Assembly: GCA_026625625.1 (NCBI GenBank)
Contig: CP113055.1
Coordinates: forward strand, 2,835,001 to 2,899,000
Source: Blastomonas sp. SL216
GTDB taxonomy: Bacteria; Pseudomonadota; Alphaproteobacteria; Sphingomonadales; Sphingomonadaceae
Length of the DNA stretch: 64,000 bases
Direction of reading: 5' to 3'
Both the position numbers and the translations under genes were made by a program. Numbering within the stretch: the stretch's first letter is position 1; each line of letters opens with the position of its first letter. The notes under the pieces are model-generated. The model saw only the letters and a list, made by a program, of their open reading frames with translations. It ran no database searches and was not told where the DNA came from. Below are positions 9,086-51,908 of this stretch, in pieces.

Positions 9086-9103
9086 AATTTGTCCGGACAA
9101 ATT
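9086..9103. promoter_or_regulatory. Operator 1: AATTTGTCCGGACAAATT (18-bp perfect palindrome)
   Basis: The site lies five bases upstream of the leftward hydrolase start (9080) and 58 bases upstream of the rightward amidase-like gene (9162), so one repressor bound here could block both divergent operons. The core TTGTCCGGACAA is shared with five other intergenic sites in this window. The GT-N4-AC form is that expected for HutC-type GntR proteins; the GntR-UTRA protein at 38266-39087 is the candidate binder. Confidence 0.8.
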
Positions 9104-9161
9104 CATCTCGACAAGCCCTTTTTTGCGATTATGGTTCGATTCGCTGCCTGATGGAGGAAAC

Positions 9162-9842
9162 ATGGAGATTATCGGCACCCGGATGATCCGCGAGGACAAG
9201 ACCGCGCGCGAACTTTTCGAAGCGGTGATGGCCAATCCGGCGCGCAACAAGTTCGGCTTCGGGGAAAAGCTCGCCATCGTGAATGTCGATGTCCAGCAGG
9301 CCTATACCCGGATCGACATGTTCAAGACCGCGTACGAGACCGACCCCCGGCAGATCGAGCATATCAACACCATCTCGGCGCTGGCGCGCGCCAAAGGCAT
9401 GCCGGTGATCTGGACGCGCGTGGCGTACAAGGACGATGCCGCCGATGCCGGTGTCTGGGGCACGCGCACCAACACGCCGGACAGCCTGCAGAACATCCGC
9501 TATGACAGCGAGCGCCACGCCTATGACCCGCGCTGCGCATTCGGCCCGGACGACCTGCATTACACCAAGCGCATGCCCAGCGCGTTCTTCGAAACCCCGC
9601 TGGCGAGCTATCTCCAGTTCCACCGCGTCGACACCGTGGTGGTGACCGGCGGCAGCACATCGGGCTGCGTCCGCGCGACGGCGGTTGATGCGCTGAGCCA
9701 CGGCTATCGCACCATCGTGCCGATCGAGACCTGTGCCGACAAGCATGAGAGCTATCATTTCGCCAACCTGACCGACCTGCAGATCAAATATGCCGATGTC
9801 GAACCGGTGCAGACGGTGATCGACTGGCTGGAGGCGCGGTGA
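9162..9842 (+). CDS. Isochorismatase-superfamily amidohydrolase (N-carbamoylsarcosine-amidase-like)
   Basis: This 226-residue cysteine hydrolase has the full triad: D43 (NVDVQQAY), K136 (YTKRMPSAF) and C169 (GGSTSGCVRATAVDA). The last motif closely resembles N-carbamoylsarcosine amidase and other C-N hydrolases rather than true isochorismatases. It should split an N-carbamoyl or amide bond, releasing ammonia and CO2 or an acid. The start at 9162 is set by GGAGG just upstream; the frame is open further 5' but crosses the operator. It heads the rightward operon with two PuuE-type proteins and an aldehyde dehydrogenase, which supports a role in opening or trimming a cyclic amide. Confidence 0.87.
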   Translation: MEIIGTRMIREDKTARELFEAVMANPARNKFGFGEKLAIVNVDVQQAYTRIDMFKTAYETDPRQIEHINTISALARAKGMPVIWTRVAYKDDAADAGVWGTRTNTPDSLQNIRYDSERHAYDPRCAFGPDDLHYTKRMPSAFFETPLASYLQFHRVDTVVVTGGSTSGCVRATAVDALSHGYRTIVPIETCADKHESYHFANLTDLQIKYADVEPVQTVIDWLEAR

Positions 9843-9864
9843 TGGGGGTGGCTATCGTAAAATG

Positions 9865-9977
9865 CCCTCTCCCCTTCAGGGGAGAGGGAGGAGCCGCGCA
9901 GCGGCGAAGGGAGAGGGGCAATCGCCGACCTCTGCACAGTCCCCCCTCCCAACCCTCCCCCCTGAAGGGGAGAGGGC
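9865..9977. repeat. REP-like palindromic element
   Basis: CCCTCTCCCC (9865-9874) and GGGGAGAGGG (9879-9888) form a perfect 10-bp hairpin. A second, looser copy (CCCCCCTCCC...GGGGAGAGGG) ends two bases before the next start codon. Related elements occur at 10884, 43050, 45450 and 46525, always between genes of the rightward operons. The terminal GGGGAGAGGG arm doubles as the ribosome-binding site of the following gene. Confidence 0.8.
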
Positions 9978-9978
9978 G

Positions 9979-10863
9979 ATGACCCCCGACACGCAACTCT
10001 ACGACTTCTCGCCCTGGCGCGGCCGCCCGAAGGTGCGCTGGCCCGGCGGCAAGAGCTGCGCGGTCTGGGTCGCGCCGAACCTGGAATATTACGAGCTCGA
10101 CCCGCCCGCCAATCCGCACCGCAAGAGCTGGACGAAACCGCATCCCGATGTCGTCGGCTATGCGCACCGCGACCATGCCAACCGGGTGGGGCACTGGCGG
10201 ATGGCCGACGTGATGACGCGGCACGGCTTTCCGGGCTCGGTCAGCCTGTCGGTGGCGCTGTGCGACCACATTCCCGAAGTGGTCGAGGATGCCCGCCAGC
10301 GCGGCTGGGAGTTCTTCAGCCACGGCATCTACAACACCCGCTACAGCTATGGCATGGATGAGGCACAGGAACGCGCCATCATCGAGGACAGCATTGCCAC
10401 GGTCGAGCGCGCCACCGGGCAGCGGATCCGCGGCTGGCTCGCGCCCGCGCTCACGCACACGCCGCGCACGCTCGATCTGATCGCCGAATATGGCCTCGAT
10501 TATACCTGCGACCTCTATCACGACGACCAGCCGACCGATGTGAAGGTAGCGTCCGGACGGCTGACCGCGATCCCCTATAGCCTTGAGGTCAACGACCATT
10601 ACGGCTTCTTCATCTACAACATGAGCCCGCGCGATTATGCCGATACGCTGATCCGTCAGTTCGAGCGGCTGGCGAAGGAAGGCGAAGCCCCGGACGGCCC
10701 CGGCGGCACGGTCATGTGCATTCCGCTGCACAGCTATCTGATCGGCCAGCCGCACCGCATCGGCCCGTTCGAGGAGGTGCTGCGCCATATCGCCGCCGAC
10801 GGCCGCGCCTGGATCGCCACCGCGGGCGAGATTGTCGATGCCTGGCGGGAGCAGCAGCCATGA
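9979..10863 (+). CDS. PuuE-type polysaccharide-deacetylase-fold hydrolase, copy 1
   Basis: This 294-residue protein has the NodB/CE4 barrel in the PuuE (allantoinase/cyclic-imide-hydrolase) arrangement. E36 in APNLEYYE replaces the first metal Asp of CE4 deacetylases, H115 lies in FFSHGIYN, and a C-terminal LHSYLIGQPHRIG motif is typical of PuuE-like enzymes. There is no signal peptide, so it acts in the cytoplasm, which argues against cell-wall or polysaccharide deacetylation. Hydrolysis of a cyclic amide or ureide is the likeliest activity (inference from subgroup and neighbours). The start at 9979 uses the arm of the REP-like repeat as ribosome-binding site. Copies 2 and 3 lie at 11057 and 45611. 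Confidence 0.85.
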   Translation: MTPDTQLYDFSPWRGRPKVRWPGGKSCAVWVAPNLEYYELDPPANPHRKSWTKPHPDVVGYAHRDHANRVGHWRMADVMTRHGFPGSVSLSVALCDHIPEVVEDARQRGWEFFSHGIYNTRYSYGMDEAQERAIIEDSIATVERATGQRIRGWLAPALTHTPRTLDLIAEYGLDYTCDLYHDDQPTDVKVASGRLTAIPYSLEVNDHYGFFIYNMSPRDYADTLIRQFERLAKEGEAPDGPGGTVMCIPLHSYLIGQPHRIGPFEEVLRHIAADGRAWIATAGEIVDAWREQQP

Positions 10864-10883
10864 TCGCGACCCTAGCCATCAAC

Positions 10884-11039
10884 TTCTCTCCCTCGACGGG
10901 AGAGAATAGGGAGGCTTGGCGGCTTGTCCGCCTAGCCGGACTTAGAGAGGGTGGAGCGGTTGCAAACACCCTCTCCCGGCTGCGACTAGCTCGCTGCGCT
11001 CACAAGTCTTCGCTGCCCTCTCCCGTCAAGGGAGAGGGG
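10884..11039. repeat. REP-like palindromic element
   Basis: Two hairpins mark the ends: TTCTCTCCC-TCGAC-GGGAGAGAA (10884-10906) and CCCTCTCCC-GTCAA-GGGAGAGGG (11016-11038). Between them are shorter parts including CACCCTCTCCCGGC. The element fills the whole space between the first and second PuuE-type genes. It is the same repeat family as the elements at 9865, 43050, 45450 and 46525. Confidence 0.8.
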
Positions 11040-11056
11040 TATCAGGGAGTGCGCGC

Positions 11057-11980
11057 ATGACGCTCGACCCCAGCTATCTCGAATATCCCCATCGCCAGCA
11101 GGGCATGGACCATAAGCTCTACCCGTACAGCAACCTGTTCACCCGCCCGCCCATTACCTGGCCGGACAGCAAGGCCGTCGCGATCTGGCCGGTGATCAGC
11201 CTCGAATGGTTCCCGATGGTGCCGAGCGACACGCCGTTCCGCGCGCCGGGGCACATGCAGACCGCCTATCCCGACTACCGGCACTATACTGCGCGCGAAT
11301 ATGGCACGCGGATCGGCCTTTTCCGGCTGCTGGATGCGTTCGAGGCGGTGGGCGCAAAGGTCTCGGTGGCGTGCAACGCCGCGATTGCCACCCGCTACCC
11401 CGCGATCATCGAGGCGTTGCACAAGGGCGGGCACGAGATCATCGCGCATTCGACCGACATGAATGGCACGATCGCCTCGGGCCTTTCTGAAGAAGACGAA
11501 CGCGCACTGATCGCCGGTTCGCTCGATGCGCTCGAAGCGGCGAGCGGCACGCGCCCGCGCGGCTGGCTGTCGATCGCGCGCTCGCAATCGTTCAACACCC
11601 CGTGCCTGCTCGCCGAGGCAGGCGTTGCCTATATGTGCGACTGGGTGAACGATGAACTGCCCTATGCGATGAGCACTGACGCCGGTAGCATCCTCAATAT
11701 CCCGCTCAACCACGAGCTTTCCGACCGGCAGATCATCAACGTCCAGCAGCAGTCGGTCGACAGCTATGCCGAGCAAATGCGCGATGCCTATGGCTGGCTG
11801 GCGAAGGAAGCTGAGACGCATGGCGGGCGGATGCTGCCGCTGCACCTGACGCCTTATATCATGGGGCTGCCGTACCGGATCGACGCGTTCGAGGGGCTGG
11901 TGCGCTGGCTGGCCGAGCAGCCGGGCGGCTGGTTCGCCACCGGGAGCGAAATCCTCGACAGCTGGAGCGCGGACACGTGA
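11057..11980 (+). CDS. PuuE-type polysaccharide-deacetylase-fold hydrolase, copy 2
   Basis: This 307-residue cytoplasmic protein is of the same family as the product of 9979 but clearly diverged. E50 (VISLEWFP) and H131 (IIAHSTDMNG) occupy the key positions, and LHLTPYIMGLPYRIDAFE gives the third conserved site. HSTDMNG replaces the usual SHGxxW, so its substrate probably differs from that of copies 1 and 3. Its stop overlaps the GTG start of the aldehyde dehydrogenase gene (GTGA), tying the two in translation; a ring-opening product that becomes an aldehyde would fit. The weak GGGAG before the ATG follows the REP-like element directly. Confidence 0.83.
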   Translation: MTLDPSYLEYPHRQQGMDHKLYPYSNLFTRPPITWPDSKAVAIWPVISLEWFPMVPSDTPFRAPGHMQTAYPDYRHYTAREYGTRIGLFRLLDAFEAVGAKVSVACNAAIATRYPAIIEALHKGGHEIIAHSTDMNGTIASGLSEEDERALIAGSLDALEAASGTRPRGWLSIARSQSFNTPCLLAEAGVAYMCDWVNDELPYAMSTDAGSILNIPLNHELSDRQIINVQQQSVDSYAEQMRDAYGWLAKEAETHGGRMLPLHLTPYIMGLPYRIDAFEGLVRWLAEQPGGWFATGSEILDSWSADT

Positions 11981-13401
11981 AGGTCGTCAACCCGCGCACC
12001 GGCGAGGCGGATTACGAAATCGCGCCGCTCGATAGCGCGGCGGTGCAGGCCGAAGCTGCCCGGCTGCGCGCGGCGCAACCCGCCTGGGCAGCGCTCGAAC
12101 CGGCAGCGCGCTCTGCCATCCTCCACCGCTGGGCCGATGCGGTGGTGGCGCATGGCGGAGCCCTGCTCGAAGCACTCACGCTCGACACAGGTCGGCGGCG
12201 CATCTCCGAGATCGAGGTCGATGGCCTGCCCGGCACCATCCGCCGATGGGCCGATCTCGCGCCCCGCCTAATCGCAGAGCATAGCCGCAGCGACCAGCCG
12301 AGCGCGCACCCCACGGTGCGCAACGGGACGCGGCTTGTGCCCTATCCGCTGTTCGGGGCGATCGCGCCGTGGAACTTCCCGATCGTGCTCTCGACCATCG
12401 ACGCGATCCCCGCGCTCGCGGCCGGGTGCGCGGCTTTGGTCAAGCCGTCCGAGATCACCCCGCGCTTCATCGCGCCGCTGAGCGAAACCATCGCGCAGGT
12501 GCCCGAGCTCGCCGCTGTGCTGAGCTTTATCGAGGGCGATGCCGCAACCGGCCAGGCTTTGGTGGCGGCCGTCGATTATGTCTGCTTCACCGGCTCGGTC
12601 GCGACCGGGCGCAAGGTGGCGGAAGCCGCGGCGCGCGCCTTCATCCCCGCCAATCTGGAACTGGGCGGCAAGGACCCGATGATCGTGCTGGCCAGCGCCG
12701 ATCCGGTCGCTGCCGCGCAGCTCGCCCTGCGCGCCAGCATCGTCGCCACCGGTCAGGCCTGCCAGTCGATCGAGCGGATCTATGTCGCCCGCGCCATCTA
12801 CCAGCCGTTCCTCGATGCGCTGGTCGAGGCCGCGAGCAAGGTCCGGCTCAACTATCCCGACATTGCCACCGGCGACATCGGCCCGTTCATCTTCGGACCC
12901 CAGGGTGCTAAGGTGCAGGCGCAGATCGACGAGGCCGTGGCAATGGGGGCCAAGATACTCACCGGAGGCACGGTCGAAAACCTGGGCGGCGGCCAGTATC
13001 TGAGGCCCACGGTCATCGCCGATGCCACTGCGGACATGGCCGTGGTGCGCGACGAGACCTTCGGCCCGGTGCTGCCGGTGATCGCCTTTGACGATTTGGA
13101 AGAGGTCATCGCGCAGGCCAATGACAGCATCTACGGCCTTTCCGCTGCCGTGGTCGCGGCCACGCCGGAGGAGGCCGAAGCCGTTGCCGTCCGGCTCGAG
13201 GCGGGCGCGGTGTCGATCAACGATGGCTCGCTGACCTCGATGGTCTGGGACGCGGAAAACAGCTCGTTCAAACTCTCCGGCATGGGCCCATCGCGCATGG
13301 GGGAGAGCGGGCTGCTGCGCTATTTCCGCAAACAGGCGCTGATCCGCCAGACCGCAAGCCCCCTTCCCCTTTCCGCTTATGCCGAGGATGCCCCGCGATG
13401 A
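11977..13401 (+). CDS. NAD(P)-dependent aldehyde dehydrogenase
   Basis: This 474-residue member of the aldehyde dehydrogenase superfamily has the PWNFP nucleotide-site motif (131-135), the catalytic base E228 (LELGGKDP) and the nucleophile C262 (TGQACQS). All essential parts are intact and the length is normal. The start is GTG at 11977, overlapping the stop of the upstream PuuE-like gene. It should oxidise an aldehyde, possibly a semialdehyde formed after ring opening, to a carboxylic acid for CoA activation. The succinate-semialdehyde/benzaldehyde group is the closest impression, but the substrate cannot be read from the sequence. Confidence 0.92.
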   Translation: MKVVNPRTGEADYEIAPLDSAAVQAEAARLRAAQPAWAALEPAARSAILHRWADAVVAHGGALLEALTLDTGRRRISEIEVDGLPGTIRRWADLAPRLIAEHSRSDQPSAHPTVRNGTRLVPYPLFGAIAPWNFPIVLSTIDAIPALAAGCAALVKPSEITPRFIAPLSETIAQVPELAAVLSFIEGDAATGQALVAAVDYVCFTGSVATGRKVAEAAARAFIPANLELGGKDPMIVLASADPVAAAQLALRASIVATGQACQSIERIYVARAIYQPFLDALVEAASKVRLNYPDIATGDIGPFIFGPQGAKVQAQIDEAVAMGAKILTGGTVENLGGGQYLRPTVIADATADMAVVRDETFGPVLPVIAFDDLEEVIAQANDSIYGLSAAVVAATPEEAEAVAVRLEAGAVSINDGSLTSMVWDAENSSFKLSGMGPSRMGESGLLRYFRKQALIRQTASPLPLSAYAEDAPR

Positions 13402-13868
13402 GAGATATTCTGGCCAAGGCCATGCCCGCGCTGTTCGCGCATGAAGGGATCTGGGACGGCACCTATCGCCATCTGGATGCGGACGGCACGCTGATCGACC
13501 AGCACCGCATGCGCACCCGCTGCGAATTTCCGGCGACAGGCGAATATGCCTATATCCAGCATAACCATCTGATCTGGCCCGATGGCCGCGAAAACCGCCT
13601 GAGCTTTGGCGGTGTGTTTCGCGACGGGCGGCTATACTGGGATACCGACCGCTTTCACGGCCATGGCTGGGAGACGCTCGACAATGTGCTGATGCTGACC
13701 CTGATCCGCAAGGATGAAGCGAACGTGCGCTTTACCGAGATGATCCAGATTTCCGATGATGGCGAGAGCCGCGCGCGCACCTGGCAATGGTTTCGCGATG
13801 GCACGCCGTTCAAGCGGACTTTGTGCGACGAAAGGCGCGTCTCGCGCGATCCGGAGGAAGAGCTTTGA
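13398..13868 (+). CDS. Small protein of unknown function, paralogue of 7197-7694
   Basis: This 156-residue soluble protein shares HEGIWDGTY (from residue 15), a QHNHLIWPDGRE segment and EMIQISDDGESRARTWQW with the protein encoded at 7197-7694. The pair therefore arose by duplication and one copy was kept in each of the two divergent operons. ATGA overlap with the aldehyde dehydrogenase gene and TTGA overlap with the next gene show tight coupling. The function is unknown. The conserved aromatic and acidic residues suggest a binding pocket rather than a structural role. Confidence 0.7.
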   Translation: MRDILAKAMPALFAHEGIWDGTYRHLDADGTLIDQHRMRTRCEFPATGEYAYIQHNHLIWPDGRENRLSFGGVFRDGRLYWDTDRFHGHGWETLDNVLMLTLIRKDEANVRFTEMIQISDDGESRARTWQWFRDGTPFKRTLCDERRVSRDPEEEL

Positions 13869-14332
13869 TTACCCCCCTGCTGATGATGGCCGCCGCGAGC
13901 GACGGCGCTTCGACCACGGCGCCTGCCTGCGACGCCCCGGTGGTCATGGTGGTCGCCGGCCCCACCCACGACCGCGAGCGGATGGCGGCTTACGGCAAGG
14001 CCATTGCCGACAGCAAGTTGTACGAGCGACTGGGCGGCTATTATATCAACATCCCCCGACCGCTGGCCACGTTCGAGGGCACCCCGCCCGCCGGGTACAC
14101 GGTGCTGATGATCCGCTTCCCGTGCCTCGCCAATGCCCAGGCTTTCTGGAATTCCAGGGAATATCAGGAGAAGATCAAGCCGCTGCGGCTCGGCCCATCG
14201 GCGGGCGATTATGTCGTGACGGTCTATCCCGAAGCCCCGCTGCGACCCGACTTGCAGGGCAAGGTCGGCGACAATGGGTACACGGCAAAGTTTGATGCGT
14301 CGGCGATCGAACAGGTCGCACCCAAGCCTTAG
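13865..14332 (+). CDS. DUF1330-like protein with short N-terminal leader
   Basis: The proposed start is TTG at 13865, overlapping the previous stop (TTGA) and preceded by GGAGGAAG; this gives 155 residues. A longer frame from 13787 would run through the upstream gene and is rejected. After a short hydrophobic leader (ITPLLMMAAAS), the body reads as a ferredoxin-like DUF1330 domain: YGKAIADSKLYERLGGYYIN and the FWNSREYQEKIKPLR end motif. DUF1330/NIPSNAP-like proteins are small dimeric proteins of unclear role often found in degradation operons. Its stop overlaps by four bases the stop of the convergent RES toxin gene. Confidence 0.68.
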   Translation: MITPLLMMAAASDGASTTAPACDAPVVMVVAGPTHDRERMAAYGKAIADSKLYERLGGYYINIPRPLATFEGTPPAGYTVLMIRFPCLANAQAFWNSREYQEKIKPLRLGPSAGDYVVTVYPEAPLRPDLQGKVGDNGYTAKFDASAIEQVAPKP

Positions 14333-15235: not shown

Positions 15236-15961
15236 TCAGCGTTCCAGTTCGACCAGTTCGTAGCGGCAGAGCATCGATCCATCGATGCTGCCATAAACGA
15301 AGATCGAATCGGCATCCGCCGTCACCCACATGTCATAGGTCGGATGGGTCTTGCCGCCCATTCCGGGGCCGAGATCGTCGATATAGCGATAGTGGCGGCA
15401 GGCGAAGGTGCCCGCTTCCACCGTCTTTTCCTCTTCGCCGACATATTCGAGGCCGATGAGCACCTCGGCGATCAGCGGCGGGGTGGCGCCACGATGGTCG
15501 GGCGAGGGCAGGAAGCAGCGGACATTGCGCCGGTGCGGGCCCTTGGTCACATCCATCACCCGGGTCATGAAGCCGTCGCCGGCAATCGGGTGCGTGCCGA
15601 AACCGTCGAACGCGCCGCCCACCGCGACGCGCTGCGACACCCGGCCGATGGACGGACCGAAACTTTCGCACTCGATCACGCCGGCGGCCGCATCATGCCG
15701 CATCCAGCCCGACCCCATGAAGCTGTCACCCACGGTCAGGTGCACATGCAGATGTTCGGGCACCATATCGGGCCCGATGCCATAGACGATATCGCGCAGC
15801 ACCTTGGGATCGGGCTCCTCGATCTCGCAGCGCGCGCGCATGATCGTGCGGCCATCTGTGTGGTGCGTGAAGCTGAACCATTCGCGCCCGCGCTCCTGAT
15901 CCATCAGCTCGGGTTTCTTGCTGGTATAGCGGATCTTGCCGCTGACGGTGCGGTGCTGCAT
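15236..15961 (-). CDS. Conserved protein of unknown function
   Basis: This 241-residue protein has no signal peptide or membrane segments. The second half (VEAGTFACRHYRYIDD...THPTYDMWVTADADSIFVYG) recalls the beta-sandwich pattern of DUF3108/LolA-like ligand-binding proteins, but I cannot assign a family. Start at 15961 chosen because it overlaps the upstream stop by one base (TGATG). It is the last gene of a short leftward set with the coiled-coil protein and the methyltransferase. A substrate-binding or cyclase-like role is possible but unproven. Confidence 0.6.
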   Translation of the reverse strand: MQHRTVSGKIRYTSKKPELMDQERGREWFSFTHHTDGRTIMRARCEIEEPDPKVLRDIVYGIGPDMVPEHLHVHLTVGDSFMGSGWMRHDAAAGVIECESFGPSIGRVSQRVAVGGAFDGFGTHPIAGDGFMTRVMDVTKGPHRRNVRCFLPSPDHRGATPPLIAEVLIGLEYVGEEEKTVEAGTFACRHYRYIDDLGPGMGGKTHPTYDMWVTADADSIFVYGSIDGSMLCRYELVELER

Positions 15962-16320
15962 CACAGGTCCTTCAGTTCGCGGCTCAGTTCCTCGACCGGC
16001 TTGTCGTCGGCCTTCATCGCTTCCATCATCTGCTGCGGTCCGCGCATCACGCGCGCGATATATTCGCGGATCATCGCAGCCCGTTCATAGCCAGCCTCGC
16101 GGTCGGGCCTGTAGCCCTCGATATCGGCGCGGCTGATCGTGCCCTTGGCGTCGAGCAGCCGCTCGACCGTATCCAATCGCTCGCGCAGCACCGACACCTC
16201 GCCGATCACCGCCATCAGCATCGACAGCATCTTTTCCTTGTCGGGATCGCCCAGGAAATCGGGGCGCTTGCCCTTGGCGCGCGCATTGGCGCGGATCATC
16301 CAGTCGACAGGCTCGGTCAA
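15961..16320 (-). CDS. Small helical protein of unknown function
   Basis: This 119-residue, charged, largely helical protein contains heptad-like stretches (MLSMLMAVIGEVSVLRERLDTVERLLDAKG) that could form a coiled coil, and a C-terminal MMEAMKADDKPVEELSRELKDL helix. The start is TTG at 16320, with GGAG eight bases upstream. It is coupled by TGATG to the following unknown gene and lies 21 bases after the methyltransferase gene. No function is recognised; an accessory or oligomerisation subunit for one of its two neighbours is the most natural guess. Confidence 0.6.
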   Translation of the reverse strand: MTEPVDWMIRANARAKGKRPDFLGDPDKEKMLSMLMAVIGEVSVLRERLDTVERLLDAKGTISRADIEGYRPDREAGYERAAMIREYIARVMRGPQQMMEAMKADDKPVEELSRELKDL

Positions 16321-16341
16321 AATGTATCTCCGTGGGAAAGA

Positions 16342-17553: not shown

Positions 17554-17576
17554 CCTAATCCTCGTTTCCTGTCCCG

Positions 17577-17650
17577 TTTTCCGGCGAAAGCCGGAATCCA
17601 GAGCGGCTTCAGAGCCATCCGACTCCTGGGCTCCGGCTTTCGCCGGAGAA
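17577..17650. repeat. Inverted intergenic repeat (CCGGCGAAAGCCGG type)
   Basis: The left arm TTTTCCGGCGAAAGCCGG (from 17577) is matched by CCGGCTTTCGCCGGAGAA (ending at 17650), with CCAGAG and CTCCTGG on the inner sides. It occupies nearly the whole gap between two leftward genes. It looks like a widespread sphingomonad intergenic palindrome and differs from the CCCTCTCCC elements. It may stabilise or end the upstream transcript. Confidence 0.7.
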
Positions 17651-44643: not shown

Positions 44644-45440
44644 TGCGCCGGTTCGAAGGCAAGACCATCGTCGTCACCGGATCGGGCAAGCACAAGGGGC
44701 TGGGCCAGGCGATCCTGCAGCGCTTTGCCGATGAAGGCGCGAACTGCGTGCTTTCAGACCTTGTCCTCGATGCCGAGGCCGAAGAGGTCGCAGAGGATCT
44801 GCGCGGGCGCGGCGCGAAGGTCGCGGCGATCGCATGCGACGTTTCAAGCGCCGAGCAGTGCCGCGCGCTGGTCGATGGCGCGGTGGCCGCGTTCGGATCG
44901 GTCGACATATTCGTCAACAATGCCGGGATCGGCTTCATGATGAAGCCGCTGCTCGATGTCGATCCGGCCGACTGGGACAAGGTGCTCGCCGTCAACCTGT
45001 CGGGCGCATTCTATTGCACGCAAGCGGCCGCGAAAGGGATGATCGCTGGCGGGCGCGGCGGGCGGATCATCAACATCGCCAGCCAGGCCGCCAAGACCGG
45101 CTTTCCGCACCTCCCAGCCTATGTCAGCTCCAAGCACGGCATGGTCGGCCTGACCCGGGCGAGCGCGGTCGAGCTTGGCGCGCATGGCATCACCGTCAAC
45201 GCAGTGTGCCCGAACCATGTGACCACGGGGCTCGGCGCGCAGCAGAACGCGTATTTCTCGAAGCTCTTGGGCTTTGCCAGCGTCGAGGCCTATCTCGCCA
45301 ACATGAAGGCGAAGAACCCGATGGGCCGCCCGGGCCTTGCCAGCGACACCGCGTCCGCCTGCGCCTGGCTGGCGAGCGACGATGCTTTTTACGTGACCGG
45401 CGAAGCGCTCAACGTGAGCGGCGGCGAGGAGATGCACTGA
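44643..45440 (+). CDS. Short-chain dehydrogenase/reductase
   Basis: This 265-residue classical SDR has the cofactor loop TGSGKHKGLGQAI, NNAG at 92-95, S147, Y160 and K164 (AYVSSK) and the C-terminal FYVTGEALNVSGG. It is complete. The cofactor loop is longer than average (TGSGKHKGLG instead of TGxxxGIG). It reduces or oxidises a keto/hydroxy group of a pathway compound. It is coupled by one-base overlap to the HapK-like gene. Confidence 0.92.
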   Translation: MRRFEGKTIVVTGSGKHKGLGQAILQRFADEGANCVLSDLVLDAEAEEVAEDLRGRGAKVAAIACDVSSAEQCRALVDGAVAAFGSVDIFVNNAGIGFMMKPLLDVDPADWDKVLAVNLSGAFYCTQAAAKGMIAGGRGGRIINIASQAAKTGFPHLPAYVSSKHGMVGLTRASAVELGAHGITVNAVCPNHVTTGLGAQQNAYFSKLLGFASVEAYLANMKAKNPMGRPGLASDTASACAWLASDDAFYVTGEALNVSGGEEMH

Positions 45441-45449
45441 TTTAAATCT

Positions 45450-45595
45450 CCTCTCCCCTTGCGGGAGAGGAAACGAAGCCTTGCGAGCTTGCTCGCTAGG
45501 CGCAGTTGGAGAGGGGGTTTCCACCCTCTCCCAGCTCCGACTAGGACCTTTTGAGGTCCAAGTCTGCGCAACCCTCTCCCGTCAAGGGAGAGGGG
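45450..45595. repeat. REP-like palindromic element
   Basis: Hairpins CCTCTCCC...GGGAGAGG (45450-45470) and CCCTCTCCC-GTCAA-GGGAGAGGG (45572-45594) flank a more irregular middle with CACCCTCTCCCAGC. The element separates the SDR from the third PuuE-type gene. It resembles the element before the second PuuE-type gene most closely, including the GTCAA loop. Confidence 0.8.
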
Positions 45596-45610
45596 TTTGG
45601 AGGATAACGG

Positions 45611-46477
45611 ATGATCGAAGAGAGAATGGACTGGCCGAACGGCGCGAAACTGGCCTTGAGCGTCGTCGTCAATGTCGAGGAAGGCAGCGAGATGACCATC
45701 GCGCGCGGCGACCGGGGGATGGAGCCGGTCGACGAGCTGGGCGTGTTCGTCAAATCGGCCATCCGCAACTATGGCAACGAGAGCAACTATCTCTATGGCA
45801 TCAAGGCGGGCGCACCGCGCGTCGTCAAGCTCCTGAAGCGCTATGACATCATGGCGAGCTGGACGGTCGCCGCGATGGCGCTGGAGACCTATCCCGAGAT
45901 TGCCGAGGCGATCGTCGAGCTCGGCCATGAACCGGTGAGCCATGGCTGGCGCTGGGTGCACCAGTTCAAGATGGATGAGGCGACCGAGCGCGAGTTCATA
46001 CAGAAGGCCGTGGCGTCGATCGAGAAGACCACCGGCACCCGGCCCTATGGCTGGCTGTCGCGCTACCTGCACACCGACAATACCCGCCGCCTGCTCAGCG
46101 ACGCCGGTTTCGAATATCATATGGACGATTATTCGGGCGACATTCCCTATTGGGATCGCGACACCGTGCCCGAAAGGCCGATGGTGATCATGCCCTATCA
46201 GCTCGATACCAACGACATGAAGATGTGGACGGATCCTGCGATGACGCCGAACCAGTGGCTCGATTATGCCGTGCGCTGCTTCGACCAGCTTTATGCCGAA
46301 GGCGAGGAGGGGAACCCGAAGATGATGTCGCTGGGCCTGCACCTGCGCATCATCGGCAGGCCGGGACGCATCTGGGCGCTGGAGGAATTCTTTCGCCATG
46401 TCCGATCCAGGAACGACGTCTGGGTAACGACCCGCCGCGCGATTGCGCAGCATTTTGCCGCCACGGTGCCGGCGTGA
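45611..46477 (+). CDS. PuuE-type polysaccharide-deacetylase-fold hydrolase, copy 3
   Basis: This 288-residue cytoplasmic protein has E23/E24 (VVNVEEGSE) at the first metal position, H111 in GHEPVSHGWRWVHQF, the diagnostic PuuE-like SHGxRW motif, and LGLHLRIIGRPGRI near the C-terminus. Of the three copies it looks closest to true allantoinase (PuuE) and cyclic-imide hydrolases. Start ATG with GGAGG nine bases upstream. It is flanked on both sides by REP-like elements. Hydrolytic ring opening of a cyclic ureide, imide or lactam is the likely activity (inference). Confidence 0.86.
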   Translation: MIEERMDWPNGAKLALSVVVNVEEGSEMTIARGDRGMEPVDELGVFVKSAIRNYGNESNYLYGIKAGAPRVVKLLKRYDIMASWTVAAMALETYPEIAEAIVELGHEPVSHGWRWVHQFKMDEATEREFIQKAVASIEKTTGTRPYGWLSRYLHTDNTRRLLSDAGFEYHMDDYSGDIPYWDRDTVPERPMVIMPYQLDTNDMKMWTDPAMTPNQWLDYAVRCFDQLYAEGEEGNPKMMSLGLHLRIIGRPGRIWALEEFFRHVRSRNDVWVTTRRAIAQHFAATVPA

Positions 46478-46524
46478 GGGGCGTGGCTATCCTCCCCTCG
46501 CCCCTTGCGGGGGCGCACCCCTTC

Positions 46525-46687
46525 CCCTCTCCCCCCGAGGGAGAGGGTTGCGCAGACTTGGCGGCTTTGCCGCCTAGTCGAAGCTGGGAGAGGGGGCAGC
46601 GGCGGGCCCTTCGCACAAAGCCCTCTCCAAGGCTTGCTAGGCAGGAAGCTGCCAAGCCAAGCCTGTCCTCTCCCGTAAAGGGAGAGG
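46525..46687. repeat. REP-like palindromic element
   Basis: CCCTCTCCC-CCCGA-GGGAGAGGG (46525-46547) and CCTCTCCC-GTAAA-GGGAGAGG (46667-46687) are the outer hairpins. Inside are further arms such as GGAGAGGGGGC. The last arm, GGGAGAGGAG, is the ribosome-binding site of the crotonase gene starting at 46692. Confidence 0.8.
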
Positions 46688-46691
46688 AGAT

Positions 46692-47453
46692 ATGAGTCTC
46701 ACCCTCACCCTTGATGGGGCGATCGCGCACCTCGTCATCGACCGGCCCGACAAGCGCAACGCCTTCACGCAATCCATGTGGGAGGCGCTGCCCGAGCTGA
46801 TCGAGCGCGCGATGCTCAACCCCGATATCCGCGTGATGATCCTGCGCGCCAGCGTGCCCGGCGCGTTCAGCGCCGGCGCGGACATTGCCGAGTTTGGCGC
46901 GGGCGCGCAGGACCCCGAGTGGCGAATCCGCAACCAGGCGGCGATCCGCCGCGCGATGGAGACACTGGCGCGCGCGCCCAAGCCGGTCATCGCGCAGATC
47001 GAGGGCGATTGCATCGGCGGCGGCTGCGGCCTGTCGCTTGCCTGCGATTTCCGCATCGCGACCCCTGCCGCGCGCTTCGGCATCACGCCGGCCAAGCTCG
47101 GCCTCGTCTATTCGCTCCACGATACCAAGCTGCTGGTCGATCTGGTGGGACCGGCGGCGGCCAAGCGCATCCTGTTCACCGCCCAGCTGGTCGATGCGAC
47201 GCAAGCGCACCGCATCGGGCTGGTCGATGAGATTGCCGAGGACGCCGGAGCTGCCGCCACCGCGCTCGCCGCGCAGATCGCCAGCGTCTCGCCGCACAGC
47301 GTGCGCGCAAGCAAGGCGATGATCGGCCGCATCATCCATGGCCAGGCCGAGGACGATGCCGAAACGCTCGCCCAGTTTGCCGATGCCTTTGGCGGGCCGG
47401 ATTTCAGGGAAGGCGTCGCCGCGTTTCTCGCCAAGCGCAAGCCGGAGTTCTGA
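46692..47453 (+). CDS. Crotonase-superfamily protein (enoyl-CoA hydratase/isomerase-like)
   Basis: This 253-residue protein has the two oxyanion-hole stretches SAGADIAEF and DCIGGGCGLSLACDF. The two catalytic glutamates of classical enoyl-CoA hydratase are not apparent: the first reads FGITPAKLGL where FGxPE is usual, and the second falls in AAAKRILFTAQ. It may therefore be an isomerase, hydrolase or decarboxylase within the superfamily. The gene lies five bases before the alpha/beta hydrolase gene. Confidence 0.85.
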   Translation: MSLTLTLDGAIAHLVIDRPDKRNAFTQSMWEALPELIERAMLNPDIRVMILRASVPGAFSAGADIAEFGAGAQDPEWRIRNQAAIRRAMETLARAPKPVIAQIEGDCIGGGCGLSLACDFRIATPAARFGITPAKLGLVYSLHDTKLLVDLVGPAAAKRILFTAQLVDATQAHRIGLVDEIAEDAGAAATALAAQIASVSPHSVRASKAMIGRIIHGQAEDDAETLAQFADAFGGPDFREGVAAFLAKRKPEF

Positions 47454-47457
47454 TCGC

Positions 47458-48336
47458 ATGGCCGATAGCGTTCCCGTCCGCCGCCTTTATGTCGATGGCC
47501 CGTTCGGCCAGCTGCATGTGCGCGAGGCGGGAATGGCCGAAGCCGGTCGTCCCTCGCTTGCCTGCTTTCACATGAGCCCGATGACGGGGCGGACGTTCGA
47601 ACGGTTCATGGGCGTCCTGTCCGCGATCAGCGGGCGGCATGTGCTCGCGTTCGACACGCCGGGTTTCGGCATGTCCGACGCGCCGCCGGTTGCGCCGGGA
47701 ATCGCCGATTATGCCGATGCCCTGATCGCGGGGATCGAGGCATGTGCCGGGTCCGGTGCGGTCGACCTGATGGGCTATCATACCGGATCGATGATCTCCT
47801 GCCAGCTGGCGGCGGAGCGCGCCGGCCAGATACGCCGCGTCGTCCTGATCTCCGCGCCGGTGTTCAGCGCCGAGGATCTCGCCGCGATGCGCGCCGAATA
47901 CCGCCACCGCACGCCTGAGGCCGATGGCAGCCATATCCTGCACCGCTGGCAGCGCTTCCACCATCATTTCGCCGCGGGCGGCCTGCCGCTCGACGAAATC
48001 AACGCCGCATTTCCCGACGGGCTGCTGGGCCGCAATATCGAGCATTGGGGCCATGATGCCGCGTTCGGCTTCGTGCCCGGCATGCGTCTTGGCGAAGTGA
48101 CCCAGCCGGTGCTGCTGCTGAACCCCGAAGACGACCTGCGCGATCACACCGCGCCTGCCCCCGCCTTGTTGCAGAACGGCCATATGGTGACGCTCGATGG
48201 CTGGGGGCACGGCTTTCTCGACCTCCACGCCCGCGAGAGCGCTGCGCTGGTCGAAAGCTTCCTCGGCGCAAGCGCCGACCCCTTTGGCGCTTTGGCCTTG
48301 CCCGAATGCGCCAGACCGCCTGTCCTGTCCGCCTGA
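47458..48336 (+). CDS. Alpha/beta-hydrolase with His at the nucleophile position
   Basis: This 292-residue single-domain protein shares ACFHMSPMTGRTFERFM and FDTPGFGMSDAP with the N-terminal half of the hydrolase at 7707-9080. The elbow reads G106-Y-H-T-G110, so H108 stands at the nucleophile position. The base histidine (GWGHGFLDLH) and the acid (LNPEDDL) seem present. The start at 47458 lies five bases after the crotonase stop. The substrate is unknown. Shared elbow and oxyanion motifs show that the two hydrolases belong to one subfamily. Confidence 0.84.
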   Translation: MADSVPVRRLYVDGPFGQLHVREAGMAEAGRPSLACFHMSPMTGRTFERFMGVLSAISGRHVLAFDTPGFGMSDAPPVAPGIADYADALIAGIEACAGSGAVDLMGYHTGSMISCQLAAERAGQIRRVVLISAPVFSAEDLAAMRAEYRHRTPEADGSHILHRWQRFHHHFAAGGLPLDEINAAFPDGLLGRNIEHWGHDAAFGFVPGMRLGEVTQPVLLLNPEDDLRDHTAPAPALLQNGHMVTLDGWGHGFLDLHARESAALVESFLGASADPFGALALPECARPPVLSA

Positions 48337-48352
48337 ACCGAGAGGCCCGATC

Positions 48353-49261
48353 ATGTCGCATCATCTGAAGCACGGAACGATCATGGGGGGCGTGGTGGTC
48401 ACGCCCGATCTTGCAGGCTCGCTCGCCGACTATCAGGGGCGGCTGGGGCTCGATCTGGTCGAACACGGCCCGCTGCCCGCCGATCTCGCGGCGAGCTGGG
48501 GCTGCGTAGGCAGCGCTGGCGCGCCCTATGCGATGCTGCGCCCGCAAAGCGGCGCGCATTGCTTCATCCGGCTGGTGGAACAGCCCGATCATGCCGATTT
48601 CCAGCCCACCCGCAGCTATGGCTGGGCCGCCTATGAACTCACCGTCAAGGACGTGTTCGGCTGGCCCGACCGGCTCGACGGCAGCGGTTTCCGCGTCATC
48701 GGCCCGCCCAAGGAGATTGCCGGCCTGCCCTATTTCGTACCCATGCAGGTGCTGGGGCGAGGCGACGAGATGATCTATCTGAATGAGGTGGCGATGGACA
48801 CGCCTTCGTCCGACCTGCCCAAGGCGCACAGCCTGACCGATCATATCTTCATCGTCATCCTGGCAGCGAAGGACCGCATGGCCTCGGTCGACTGGTACCG
48901 CCACGCGCTGCGCCTCGACGAAGGGGAGAGCTACACGCTCGAATACACGATGATCAACGCCGCGTTCGGCAAGCCCGCCGGGACGCAGTCGGTGATCACG
49001 ATGGTTCAGAACGAGCGCCTGCCGATCCTGGAGATCGACGATTATCCCGCCGAGGCGACCGACCGTCCGCAGCATGCCGACATGCTGCCGCCGGGCAATG
49101 CGCTGGTGACGCTGGCGGTGGAAAGCTTCGACGATCTCGATGTTGAATTCGTCACCCCGCCGGTGCTGCGCCATGGCGACCTGTACATGGGCAATATGGC
49201 AGCGACGGTGCGCGGACCCTCGGGCGAGCTGGTCGAGCTGATCGAGACCGGGCTGTCCTGA
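48353..49261 (+). CDS. Double-domain VOC (glyoxalase/extradiol-dioxygenase-fold) protein
   Basis: This 302-residue cytoplasmic protein contains two VOC units: residues 1-150 (GTIMGGVVVTPDLAGSLADYQGRLGLDLVEHG) and 155-302 (TDHIFIVILAAKDRMASVDWYRHALRLDEGE, ending TVRGPSGELVELIETG). The architecture is that of extradiol dioxygenases and of glyoxalase-like isomerases. The metal ligands are not clearly of the dioxygenase type. ATG at 48353 follows a weak GAGAGG. The racemase-fold gene starts five bases after its stop. Confidence 0.8.
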   Translation: MSHHLKHGTIMGGVVVTPDLAGSLADYQGRLGLDLVEHGPLPADLAASWGCVGSAGAPYAMLRPQSGAHCFIRLVEQPDHADFQPTRSYGWAAYELTVKDVFGWPDRLDGSGFRVIGPPKEIAGLPYFVPMQVLGRGDEMIYLNEVAMDTPSSDLPKAHSLTDHIFIVILAAKDRMASVDWYRHALRLDEGESYTLEYTMINAAFGKPAGTQSVITMVQNERLPILEIDDYPAEATDRPQHADMLPPGNALVTLAVESFDDLDVEFVTPPVLRHGDLYMGNMAATVRGPSGELVELIETGLS

Positions 49262-49265
49262 GCGC

Positions 49266-50060
49266 ATGGGCCGGATGCGGATCGGGTTGATCGGGACAGC
49301 GCTGAACCCGTTGCAGCGCGGCGGCCCCGCGCCTGAACTCGCGGCGCTGTTCCCGGACGCCAGCTTCCACGCCTTTCCCTCGCGCGTGCCCGCCTTCCCC
49401 TACACGCCGCTCGAACAGGCGATGCAGGCGTTGGGCCATGCCGAAGCCGCGCTCAGCGCCGCAGAGCAAGGCTGTGATGCAGCGGTGATCGACAGCGTGG
49501 GCGATTATGGCCTGGCCGCGATGCGCGCGATGCTGCCCATTCCTGCGATCGGATCGGGCGAGGCCGGACTGGCCGAGGCGGGACAAGGCGGGCGGCGGTT
49601 CGGCATCGTGACGGTGTGGCCCGAATCGATGAATTTCATCCTGGCCGAACGGCTGCAATCCTGCGGCCTCACCGATCGGTGCACCGGTACCGTCAATATC
49701 GGCAGCGACGATGATGCCGCCTCGCTCACCGGGCCGGGCAGCTATCTCGCGCAGGTCCGCGAAGGCCAGGCCGCGATCCTGCAGCGGGTGCTGGCAGGGA
49801 TCGAGACGCTGGTGGCGGGCGGCGCAGAGGCGGTGATGCTGGGCTGTACCTGCATGTCCGCGATGGCCGAGAGCGTTGCCACCGCATCGCCCGTACCCGT
49901 GATCAACCCGCTCGCCGCCGGGCTGCGCGCCGCGCTGGCTGCTCCGCCCCTCACGCTTCCCCCACTGCCGCGTGAGGGTCGCCCCGCCCTGCTGCGCGCG
50001 ATGGTGGGTGCGGTGGCAGGCGAGATGGCCGAAGACTGCCCGGTGTGCATCGCCGGCTAG
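49266..50060 (+). CDS. Asp/Glu/hydantoin-racemase-fold protein with one catalytic Cys
   Basis: This 264-residue protein matches the hydantoin/aspartate racemase superfamily: IGLIGTALNP, DAAVIDSVGDYGLAAMR and VMLGCTCMSAMAE. The second catalytic Cys is present (C194), but the first position carries S77 where hydantoin racemases have Cys (xCFGDPGL). Arylmalonate decarboxylase also keeps only the second Cys, so a decarboxylase or isomerase is as likely as a racemase. It is the last gene of the rightward operon that starts at 39108 and is convergent with the quinone oxidoreductase gene. Confidence 0.8.
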   Translation: MGRMRIGLIGTALNPLQRGGPAPELAALFPDASFHAFPSRVPAFPYTPLEQAMQALGHAEAALSAAEQGCDAAVIDSVGDYGLAAMRAMLPIPAIGSGEAGLAEAGQGGRRFGIVTVWPESMNFILAERLQSCGLTDRCTGTVNIGSDDDAASLTGPGSYLAQVREGQAAILQRVLAGIETLVAGGAEAVMLGCTCMSAMAESVATASPVPVINPLAAGLRAALAAPPLTLPPLPREGRPALLRAMVGAVAGEMAEDCPVCIAG

Positions 50061-50109
50061 GCCGTTCTCGCGCCAGGGCAGGGAACGGCATGGGCACAGC
50101 CTGAAGCGC

Positions 50110-51090
50110 TCAGGGCAGCAGCAATGTCGACCCGCTGGTGGCGCGGCCTTCCAGATCGCGATGCGCCTGCTCGGCCTGTTCCAGCGGATAGGTCTGGCCG
50201 ATCGTCACCTTGACCTTGCCCGATCGGATCATCTGCCACAGACGCGCTGCGCCAGCTTCACGCTCGGCCGGGTCGGCATAATAATCGAACAGCGTCGGCC
50301 GGGTATTGTAGAGCGAACCCTTGGTGGCGAGGATGCCCAGGCTGATGCCCGTTACCGGCGCGCTGGCATTGCCGTACGACACGATCAGCCCGCGCCGTCC
50401 GGTGCTGTCGAGCGAGGCCTCCCAGGTATCGAGCCCGACGCCATCATAGACCACGCGCACGCCGGCCCCGCCGGTCAGCTCGCGCACGCGCTTGGCGGTA
50501 TCCTCGCGGGTGTAGAAGACGATATGATCGGCCCCCGCTTCGCGCGCGAGCGCGGCCTTTTCCTCGCTGCTCACCGTACCGATCACGGTTGCGCCCACGG
50601 CCTTGAGCCATTGCACCAGCAACAGGCCGACGCCGCCTGCGGCTGCATGGACCAGCACCGCCTGGCCCGGTTCGACCCGCGCGCAGCGTTCGACCAGGAA
50701 TTCGGTGGTGCAGCCCTTGAGCAGCGCCGCAGCGGCCACCTCGTCCGAAATATCCTCGGGCAGCCTGAACAGGCTCGAGGCGGCGACATTGCGGAGATCG
50801 GCATAGGCGCCGCGCGCAGGGCCAAAGGTCGCGACCCGGTCGCCGACGTTCAGCCCCTCGACGCCCTCGCCAACCGCCTCGATCACGCCGGCTGCTTCCA
50901 GCCCCAGCCCGCCCGGCAGATCGACCGGATAGATGCCGCGCCGATGATAGGTATCGATATAGTTGAGGCCGACCGCAGTCTGGCGCAGCGTCACCTCGCT
51001 TGCGCCGGGCGTCGGCACGTCAACGCTGTGCCACTGGATCACCTCGGGACCGCCGGTTTGTGTGAAGATCGCCTGGCGTGCCTGCATCAT
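50110..51090 (-). CDS. qor: NADPH:quinone oxidoreductase (zeta-crystallin-like MDR)
   Basis: This 326-residue medium-chain dehydrogenase without zinc ligands has the quinone-reductase pattern VGLNYIDTYHRRGIYPVDLPGGLGLEAAG and the NADPH motif VHAAAGGVGLLLVQWLK. It reduces quinones or activated alkenes. Its start overlaps by four bases the stop of the exported protein gene upstream (ATGA), so both are controlled from the operator at 51893. Confidence 0.92.
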   Translation of the reverse strand: MMQARQAIFTQTGGPEVIQWHSVDVPTPGASEVTLRQTAVGLNYIDTYHRRGIYPVDLPGGLGLEAAGVIEAVGEGVEGLNVGDRVATFGPARGAYADLRNVAASSLFRLPEDISDEVAAAALLKGCTTEFLVERCARVEPGQAVLVHAAAGGVGLLLVQWLKAVGATVIGTVSSEEKAALAREAGADHIVFYTREDTAKRVRELTGGAGVRVVYDGVGLDTWEASLDSTGRRGLIVSYGNASAPVTGISLGILATKGSLYNTRPTLFDYYADPAEREAGAARLWQMIRSGKVKVTIGQTYPLEQAEQAHRDLEGRATSGSTLLLP

Positions 51091-51854
51091 TCTGCTCCAT
51101 TCAAAGTAAAACTGGCCAAAGTACAGCTGGCCTGCATCCAGCGTTGATTGATTCCCACCCGCACCGCACCGGGATCGGCCCAGCCATAAGCCACCGCGCG
51201 GTCCAAGTCATCGGGGGTGAAGACATAGAGGACGATCGACGGTCGGTTGCGCGTCGGCGGCGGCCAGACCACATTGCGGATACGGATGATCGCTTCAGGC
51301 GCGCCGCTATCGCCGCCGCCGAGCCGCAGCCGCCCGCCCTGGTCGTGCGTCTTCATGTCTGCCTGAAACAGCCAGTCCTCGCTGCCATCGGGTTTGGGGG
51401 CGCTGCGCCTCACGCTCATCCAGCAGGTGACGGGTCTTGCCCGCCTAAGGCTGGTTTGCTGGCCATCAGCCAGGCGCAGGGTGAGGCCCTGCGCGTCGAG
51501 CCGCACCGGCAGCGGACGGCCTGAACAGCCAGTGGCGGCGGGCAGGAAGCTGGTAGAGCCATCGGCGTCTTTCCGCGCGGTCAGCATGCAGGGGCCGATC
51601 GTCCAGCCGGTGGGGGTTGGTACGATGGTTTCGCTGGTCAGCACCGTGCCGAACCGGTCGATCCGCTGCCAGACGAGTGCATCGCCCCTGGCTTCGATCC
51701 GCACACCGGTCCAGGGCGGCGGTGTGCGTCCGGCCTCGCCATCGAAATAGACCTGCTCTTCATTGGTAAAGGTTCCGGTCGCATCCAGGACAACCGGCTG
51801 CGCCAGCGCAGGCGCAGCCATCAGGACGAGCGGAAGAGACGCGAGCAGGATCAT
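51087..51854 (-). CDS. Exported protein of unknown function
   Basis: This 255-residue protein has a clear signal peptide (ILLASLPLVLMAAPALA|QP). The mature part is beta-rich, with pairs of Cys (GPCMLTARKD, ATGCSGRP, TCWMS, ASCTLAS) that could form disulphides in the periplasm. No family is recognised. Operator 6 lies 39 bases upstream of its start, between this gene and the divergent exported protein at 51964. Pairing with a cytoplasmic quinone reductase is unusual. Confidence 0.68.
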   Translation of the reverse strand: MILLASLPLVLMAAPALAQPVVLDATGTFTNEEQVYFDGEAGRTPPPWTGVRIEARGDALVWQRIDRFGTVLTSETIVPTPTGWTIGPCMLTARKDADGSTSFLPAATGCSGRPLPVRLDAQGLTLRLADGQQTSLRRARPVTCWMSVRRSAPKPDGSEDWLFQADMKTHDQGGRLRLGGGDSGAPEAIIRIRNVVWPPPTRNRPSIVLYVFTPDDLDRAVAYGWADPGAVRVGINQRWMQASCTLASFTLNGAE

Positions 51855-51892
51855 GGCCGCATTACGCCCGAGCCCGCACCGGGCGTCAACCT

Positions 51893-51908
51893 ATTTGTCC
51901 GGACAAAT
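51893..51908. promoter_or_regulatory. Operator 6: ATTTGTCCGGACAAAT
   Basis: A 16-bp perfect palindrome, identical to operator 5, between two divergent genes for exported proteins (starts 51854 and 51964). It is the most distant copy, about 42.8 kb from operator 1, and marks the right edge of the regulon next to the EPS genes. Confidence 0.8.

Follow-up and report, generated by a model that had tools for sequence, protein, structure and literature searches.

Transcription factors of the HutC subfamily of GntR regulators, whose definition rests on the C-terminal domain, are associated with the consensus operator NyGTMTAKACNy, in which GT and AC stand 4 nt apart; members with deviating sites are also listed (PMC4494728). 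A regulator of this subfamily belongs to the histidine-utilization regulon of Proteobacteria, which in Sphingomonadales also includes a TonB-dependent transporter (PMC5343134). Cyclic imide hydrolases are related to the PuuE allantoinase group (PMC9304392). Here, a stretch of 64,000 nt from Blastomonas sp. SL216 was analysed (contig CP113055.1, C1:2835001-2899000 of a genome of 3,863,332 bases; hereafter the window), in which the palindrome TTGTCCGGACAA recurs along a putative catabolic cluster that also encodes a GntR/UTRA protein. With a probability of roughly 80%, the palindromes are operon-start operators of one conserved catabolic regulon, to which the GntR/UTRA protein is predicted to bind as a repressor released by a pathway intermediate.

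Palindromes in the window and elsewhere in the genome

The 12-bp palindrome TTGTCCGGACAA occurs in five exact copies in the window (9089-9100, 24364-24375, 25212-25223, 33289-33300 and 51895-51906) and a sixth site, at 25179-25190, corresponds to a single copy of TTGTCTGGACAA. At up to two mismatches to TTGTCCGGACAA the window contains these six sites and no others; in the shuffle control the same search returned 1.34 places on average (maximum 5), with none of the 100 shuffles reaching six. Among all 4096 perfect 12-bp palindromes TTGTCCGGACAA ranks first with five copies in the window, every other one occurring at most once. In order of position, the inverted repeats extend over 18, 12, 20, 14, 16 and 16 bp; all are perfect except that at 25175-25194, in which only the centre pair does not match (Table 1). 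By a simple gene call from codon usage, none of the six falls within a gene, although the intergenic share of the cluster is just 4.9%. Four are located in divergons (ABHa/IsoCh, TonB1/MemP, DUF1838/HpcH and u510/u519) while the other two stand in tandem upstream of TonB2. With a position weight matrix (PWM) built from relatives, the window sites score 18.6-30.1 and the next best site of the window 10.0. A chance or repeat origin of the palindromes was rejected based on the shuffles, the all-palindrome ranking and the placement. A first-pass annotation of this DNA had already proposed the six palindromes, their intergenic, divergent or tandem placement and their absence from the exopolysaccharide parts, all of which was confirmed here, the absence for the sugar-nucleotide/exopolysaccharide genes; the extended coordinates that it gave correspond to the inverted-repeat limits.

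The cluster extends from 2490 to 52740 and, once a toxin-antitoxin-like pair (14329-15179) and a sugar-nucleotide block (27962-32287) are set aside, comprises 43 called genes. Based on strand and gene order, 31 of these read away from a palindrome. The remaining 12 correspond to gntR (38266-39087, minus strand) and to a rightward run of 11 genes (39108-50060), so that the palindromes mark most, not all, transcription units. The first-pass proposal that they delimit the transcription units thus fails for gntR and for this prpDa-AspRac operon, which together include the core retained by the most distant family members.

Genome-wide, all five exact copies of TTGTCCGGACAA are found inside these ca. 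43 kb of the window. Six further places have one mismatch, namely the window site at 25179 and five outside the window. Since a reversed-pattern control already gives 5 places at up to one mismatch, versus 11 for the motif, one-mismatch matches alone are weak evidence. One of them, TTGTACGGACAA at 1112095 (PWM score 21.2), is located 1.73 Mb from the window and precedes a second operon composed of a methyltransferase gene (product 67% identical to that of the window) followed by homologues of u159 (52%) and MemP (25%). In a second Blastomonas genome (G564; G and L numbers designate genomes and loci), the same remote operon occurs behind TTGTCCGTACAA, which is the same one-mismatch sequence on the other strand. 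The main cluster of G564 keeps five of the six window site positions, two exactly and three with one mismatch, and no counterpart of the 25212 site was found there at up to one mismatch. Judged by these sites, the regulon is predicted to extend beyond the 43 kb, to which the first-pass annotation had confined it, as far as the second operon 1.73 Mb away.

The other four outside sites score 12.3-15.5. Three of them, not counted as operators, lie within a called gene (665365), 2 bp before the called gene of a Pycsar-effector-family protein (2075648) and between two called genes (2117209). The fourth, at 2371598 (L271:4007-9649), has a TonB-receptor gene on one side and, on the other, a gene of the PEP-mutase/isocitrate-lyase family with AcnC/AcnL-like paralogues (45-47% identical) behind it. 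Its context looks related to the regulon; it was not counted as an operator because it is kept in only two of the five Blastomonas genomes that have the PEP-mutase/isocitrate-lyase-family gene.

Conservation in relatives and co-occurrence with GntR

In a sample of 298 genomes of the family, in which GntR was called at E <=1e-30, the regulator is encoded in 38 genomes and exact TTGTCCGGACAA is present in 59. All 38 GntR-positive genomes have at least one exact copy and 36 have two or more. Among the 260 GntR-negative genomes the palindrome is present in 21, as a single copy in 20 and in four copies in G203. For two or more exact copies, this corresponds to 36/2 versus 1/259 (Fisher p 7e-43, a nominal value since the genomes are related). 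Within the genus, G207, G246, G157, G564 and G565 have GntR while G001, G095 and G281 are without it. Order-wide, model scores of at least 331 bits are confined to the family and are followed by scores of 227 or less.

The placement of the sites was further analysed in named GTDB contigs scanned with a GntR alignment, using the best 80 of 243 loci (each up to ca. 20 kb, 1.49 Mb in total). This set is not independent of the 298 genomes, with which it overlaps. Of the 80 loci, 71 contain a site at one mismatch or fewer, 68 of them an exact copy, and eight of the nine loci without a site are shorter than 14 kb. Overall, 189 sites were found, only 9 of which fall within homologous gene bodies; the commonest placements are DUF1838/HpcH (49), MemP/TonB1 (20) and HpcH/MemP (18). 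With 125 copies TTGTCCGGACAA is again the top of the 4096 palindromes, the next having 27, and the mean over 59 half-site permutations is 0.10 copies (maximum 3). In nine of the 298 genomes that were read further out, an exact site occurs at ABHa/IsoCh in all nine, a site with up to one mismatch before the methyltransferase gene in five and an exact site adjoining u152 and a MemP-like gene in five. Homologues of u510 and u519 adjoin a site in G060, G278 and G089 as well. The palindrome thus recurs before the same genes in many genera, and neither of the outcomes named beforehand as speaking against an operator, an unspecific motif or a lack of conservation before orthologous operons, was encountered (36/38 versus 1/260 genomes; 71/80 loci).

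Some genomes have the genes in dispersed form. G286 contains five exact copies on five contigs, four of which are located directly before orthologues (u483-ABHa-D3598; PuuEc; PuuEa-PuuEb; and DUF1838/MaoC-ACAD-CoAT3b-c), the fifth being found between a TonB receptor and an S9 peptidase. The palindrome therefore follows the genes and not a chromosomal place. In the fragmentary genome G022, four of nine copies were examined: the first directly precedes PuuEa-PuuEb-ALDH, the second is flanked by TonB2-like and DUF1838-like genes, near the third there is a weak nitrilase-like match, and the fourth adjoins a POT-family transporter. Outside the genus, full-length GntR matches are 42-64% identical; this range and the dispersed operons of G286 led us to reject the recent transfer of one block as sole cause of the conservation. 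A plasmid origin was likewise discarded, no GntR relative being found at 1e-40 in 72,556 plasmid records.

More distant GntRs were represented by 13 loci (L251-L263), of which two have a site at no more than one mismatch, two have two-mismatch sites only and nine have none. In G299, from another family, TTGTCCAGACAA occurs 89 bp before the gene of a 32%-identical GntR, beside SDR-HapK-PrpDb and DUF1838, and in G553, close to a 31%-identical GntR, an exact site precedes a MaoC gene. Three more loci of the family were covered: sites occur in two, and the third, G528, has one at two mismatches only. In L257 and L262, distant GntR relatives adjoin HpcH/MaoC/ACAD/CoA-transferase genes and the nearby palindromes are centred on TTCGAA instead of TCCGGA, which possibly reflects operator drift within a regulator group. 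Finally, TTGTCCAGACAA was also observed in G218 (L216:1675-9878) directly before an aldehyde dehydrogenase gene, within a same-strand run whose upstream part comprises IsoCh-like, CoA-transferase, hydantoinase B, hydantoinase A and HMGL-like genes.

Candidate regulator and competing explanations

Of the window proteins scanned, just one is encoded by a GntR gene (38266-39087), and no other conserved transcription-factor gene was found in these clusters. This GntR protein combines a GntR helix-turn-helix (74.2 bits against a Pfam cut-off of 27) with a UTRA domain (69.9 against 23.8 bits), as do members of the HutC subfamily. The true start of gntR is possibly ca. 20 codons downstream of the called one, since orthologues align from there. 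In the site TTGT-CCGG-ACAA, GT and AC are 4 nt apart as in HutC operators, which would suit binding by GntR, while the TA-centred core GTMTAKAC is replaced by GTCCGGAC. A GntR dimer is predicted to sit on the palindromes and to repress the operons, and a pathway intermediate fitting the UTRA domain would, upon binding, release it from DNA.

Several observations weigh against this reading. GntR and the cluster almost always occur together (the PaaK-like ligase of the cluster is found in 37 of the 298 genomes, 36 of which are GntR-positive, out of 38), so that co-occurrence ties the palindrome to the cluster plus GntR and not to GntR alone. The gntR-prpDa region has no palindrome in this genome (best symmetric score -4.1), gntR and the prpDa operon have no site in four named Blastomonas loci, and in G564 none was found for either at up to one mismatch. 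G286 has no copy near its gntR-prpD core. GntR-positive G132 has one exact copy, away from homologues, and none near its gntR. All four copies of GntR-negative G203 are away from homologues, as are the four outlying ones examined among the 36 copies of G072 (L222-L225 and L231-L234 for the two genomes), in which two more are located in the gntR locus. The site centre is CG where the HutC consensus has TA. Finally, the PuuE, RipB and mesaconate CoA-transferase assignments are all below their equivalog cut-offs.

The operators of the regulon could be bound by another DNA-binding protein, with GntR merely linked to them; no site precedes gntR in Blastomonas, and a LysR gene adjoins one site in G236 (L208). 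Such a situation is very unlikely, as no other conserved transcription-factor gene was found in the clusters, the spacing of the site fits the HutC subfamily and the region upstream of gntR contains a site scoring at least 10 in 30 of 79 named loci (background 4.2%). Putative autoregulation is accordingly widespread, though neither the four named Blastomonas loci nor the window show it. A mainly activating or a dual role of GntR at these sites is rather unlikely: one site per divergon could serve either role, but characterised HutC-type regulators usually repress, and in the only region scanned palindrome 5 falls between the two elements of a promoter-like pair directed at DUF1838, which is weakly compatible with repression.

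The presence of three PuuE paralogues, two TonB receptors and several lyases, and the retention by distant family members of only a gntR-prpD-ligase-amidase-HapK-SDR core near gntR (L077-L082), would fit a cluster that serves several unrelated substrates under a shared regulator. We hold this to be possible though doubtful, because the modules recur together and, also where they are dispersed, keep the same operator. Scattered copies in G072 and G203, and the longer, hairpin-like inverted flanks of the one-mismatch copies at 2117209 and 2371598, could evoke a mobile or terminator-like repeat. This is extremely improbable given that the window copies stand at operon starts and that relatives keep the 12-bp core almost unchanged, unlike the positions more than about 3 bases outside it. 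Overall, the operator and the regulon are real and conserved, and GntR is well supported as candidate regulator.

Gene content, putative pathway and comparison with known systems

The features of the cluster are given in Table 1. The HpcH gene probably starts at ATG 33349.

Table 1. Palindromes, predicted regulator gene and gene groups of the cluster (window positions)
Feature	Position	Strand	Context	PWM score
Palindrome 1, AATTTGTCCGGACAAATT	9086..9103		ABHa/IsoCh divergon	30.1
Palindrome 2, TTGTCCGGACAA	24364..24375		TonB1/MemP divergon	26.6
Palindrome 3, AAATTTGTCTGGACAAATTT, centre pair mismatched	25175..25194		upstream of TonB2	26.3
Palindrome 4, CTTGTCCGGACAAG	25211..25224		tandem with palindrome 3, upstream of TonB2	18.6
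Palindrome 5, ATTTGTCCGGACAAAT	33287..33302		DUF1838/HpcH divergon	28.4
Palindrome 6, ATTTGTCCGGACAAAT	51893..51908		u510/u519 divergon	27.9
GntR/UTRA (HutC-type) transcription factor, predicted regulator	38266..39087	-	Pfam domains, co-occurrence with palindrome	
ABHa (alpha/beta hydrolase), DUF3598-like calycin, AcnL and AcnC (LeuC/LeuD-type hydratase), HMGL-like lyase, type III CoA-transferase, VOC protein	2490..9080	-	leftward from palindrome 1	
Isochorismatase-type amidohydrolase (IsoCh), two PuuE-like deacetylase-fold hydrolases, aldehyde dehydrogenase, u134, DUF1330	9162..14332	+	rightward from palindrome 1	
TonB receptor 1, MFS, FAD_binding_4 oxidase, nitrilase-like protein, methyltransferase, u159, u152	15236..24300	-	leftward from palindrome 2	
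MemP, conserved membrane protein	24425..25108	+	between palindromes 2 and 3	
TonB receptor 2	25256..27724	+	behind palindromes 3 and 4	
DUF1838 protein	32333..33241	-	leftward from palindrome 5	
HpcH/CitE-type lyase, RipB/Ich-like MaoC hydratase, acyl-CoA dehydrogenase, two type III CoA-transferases	33304..38257	+	from palindrome 5	
11 genes: two MmgE/PrpD, PaaK-like ligase, amidase, HapK-like, SDR, PuuEc, enoyl-CoA hydratase, alpha/beta hydrolase, VOC protein u483, Asp/Glu/hydantoin racemase	39108..50060	+	no palindrome in this genome	
MDR dehydrogenase, u510	50110..51854	-	leftward from palindrome 6	
u519, signal-peptide-like N-terminus by eye	51982..52740	+	rightward from palindrome 6	

Region 27824-32356, between TonB2 and DUF1838, contains the four sugar-nucleotide genes (phosphomannomutase, epimerase, cupin and ManC-type transferase). 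In G207 (B. natatoria, L043), TonB2 and DUF1838 are 118 bp apart and the cupin/ManC homologues are found behind u519 (L044); the two genes are likewise adjacent in G564 (L281). The block is therefore regarded as a local insertion or relocation. The pair at 14329-15179 corresponds to a RES-domain and an Xre/MbcA/ParS-type gene and also occurs in Blastomonas G207, G157 and G564. MemP is 64-79% identical across nine loci of other genera and is present in 45 of the 80 named loci, at least 77 of the 189 sites adjoining it; AlphaFold gave only a low-confidence model of it (pLDDT 73.2), for which the PDB offered no match at E <=0.001. No PDB sequence match at 0.001 was found for u483 either, and the 120 matches listed for the FAD oxidase bear generic names only (FAD-binding oxidoreductase, glycolate oxidase). 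The nitrilase-family protein (17658-18794) displays a signal-like N-terminus and, by what we take to be the catalytic-Cys signature of the family, a Ser at the expected Cys position (IASEEILYPE); it may not be an ordinary nitrilase.

For several enzymes, the closest matches suggest a direction for the pathway. The closest solved protein to HpcH is 3qll, named citrate lyase (3.5e-51), which we assume to be a citramalyl-CoA lyase, followed by malyl/methylmalyl-CoA lyases. MaoC is closest to RipB/Ich (NF038241; 245.2 bits, equivalog cut-off 340) and CoAT3b to succinyl-CoA:mesaconate CoA-transferase (NF041294; 211.3 bits, cut-off 700). AcnL passes two LeuC subfamily cut-offs, with 654.3 versus 531 bits for NF009116 (3-isopropylmalate dehydratase large-subunit subfamily), and falls below that of the leuC equivalog TIGR00170 (517.9 versus 560.25). 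PuuEc matches PuuE allantoinase (2e-66), its TIGR03212 score of 248.6 bits lying below the equivalog cut-off of 424.6, as does that of PuuEa (107.9 bits); PuuEb is more distant from PuuE (1.2e-20). The isochorismatase-type enzyme matches N-carbamoylsarcosine amidohydrolases. No protein could be confidently assigned as a ring-cleaving oxygenase.

These matches suggest that C-N opening of amide- or imide-type rings is followed by CoA-dependent breakdown of branched C5-type diacids, the substrate probably being a nitrogen-containing ring compound. The TonB receptors and MFS carriers would import this compound, and the PuuE-like hydrolases, the amidase and the isochorismatase-type enzyme would open and deamidate its rings. 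The LeuCD-type hydratase, the lyases, the CoA-transferases, the acyl-CoA dehydrogenase, the RipB-like hydratase and the citramalyl-CoA-lyase-like enzyme would then convert branched diacids into central metabolites, for which the acyl-CoA dehydrogenase and the second CoA-transferase suggest an entry at the saturated, alkylsuccinate level. The first-pass annotation had one regulator control uptake, ring opening and CoA-dependent breakdown of one substrate; one regulon for uptake and catabolism with GntR inside it stands, while its ring opening and its single substrate are kept here as suggestions.

A more specific and, in our estimation, quite unlikely possibility is that the regulon represents the first dedicated bacterial pathway for uptake and mineralisation of tetrapyrrole-type rings (bilins, chlorins or maleimide fragments of these). 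Such a substrate is conceivable because of the calycin-fold protein and the HapK-like protein. The former (7197-7694) models as a calycin barrel (pLDDT 89.7), nearest to BFA1, a Nostoc DUF3598 protein, spirocyclases, nitrobindins and the phycobiliprotein lyase CpeS, fatty-acid-binding proteins ranking lower; a calycin fold by itself indicates no ligand. The TonB receptors would import the rings, the calycin and HapK-like proteins would handle pyrrolic pieces and PuuE-type imidases and amidases would open the resulting maleimides, the carbon being finished by the LeuCD-type hydratase, the lyases and the C5-diacid CoA module, with one GntR repressor switching all. Among the window genes, no macrocycle-opening enzyme was recognised. 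Of the 38 GntR-positive genomes 18 have photosynthetic reaction-centre genes (PF00124), as do 37 of the 260 GntR-negative ones. Hand-counted by genus from listings, the figures are 13/23 versus 14/73 (Fisher p 0.001, genera being related too), and in g14, g63 and g81 GntR and PF00124 are found in different genomes. This gives only a hint of a link between the regulon and phototrophy.

A regulon of 43 genes in multiple operons, with modules recurring in dozens of Sphingomonadaceae/Erythrobacter-type genomes, offers a handle on an unassigned nutrient. The palindrome predicts pathway membership of genes even when they are scattered, so that the uncharacterised DUF1838, MemP, u152, u159, u510 and u519 would become members of one testable pathway, an intermediate of which the UTRA domain should bind. 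In the literature, no description of the regulon or of the pathway was found, an in silico prediction in RegPrecise or in the PMC4494728 supplements remaining possible. A search for the motif returned only an unrelated Drosophila paper and one for DUF1838 a single paper, on a Streptomyces antibiotic cluster.

A HutC-type catabolic regulon is a known type, and the pathway governed here is apparently undescribed. The locus resembles the HutC subfamily (PMC4494728) in its GntR helix-turn-helix and UTRA domains, GT-N4-AC palindrome, divergon architecture and local catabolic regulon, but has a CCGG centre instead of the TA-centred MTAK consensus, and its gene content is unlike that for histidine, N-acetylglucosamine, trehalose or phosphonate use. 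It shares its regulator subfamily with the histidine-utilization regulon (PMC5343134), from which it differs in that no histidine-degradation enzyme is found among the Pfam assignments of the cluster. PuuEa-c have the deacetylase fold in common with the PuuE allantoinase/cyclic imide hydrolase group, whose known members open small cyclic amides or imides (PMC9304392), but PuuEc remains below the PuuE equivalog cut-off. Finally, enzymes of the itaconate/mesaconate-type CoA pathway (type III CoA-transferase, RipB/Ich-type hydratase and CitE-type lyase) are among the best matches of HpcH, MaoC and CoAT3b; the cluster differs from this pathway by the sub-threshold scores of MaoC and CoAT3b and by its extra acyl-CoA dehydrogenase and second CoA-transferase.

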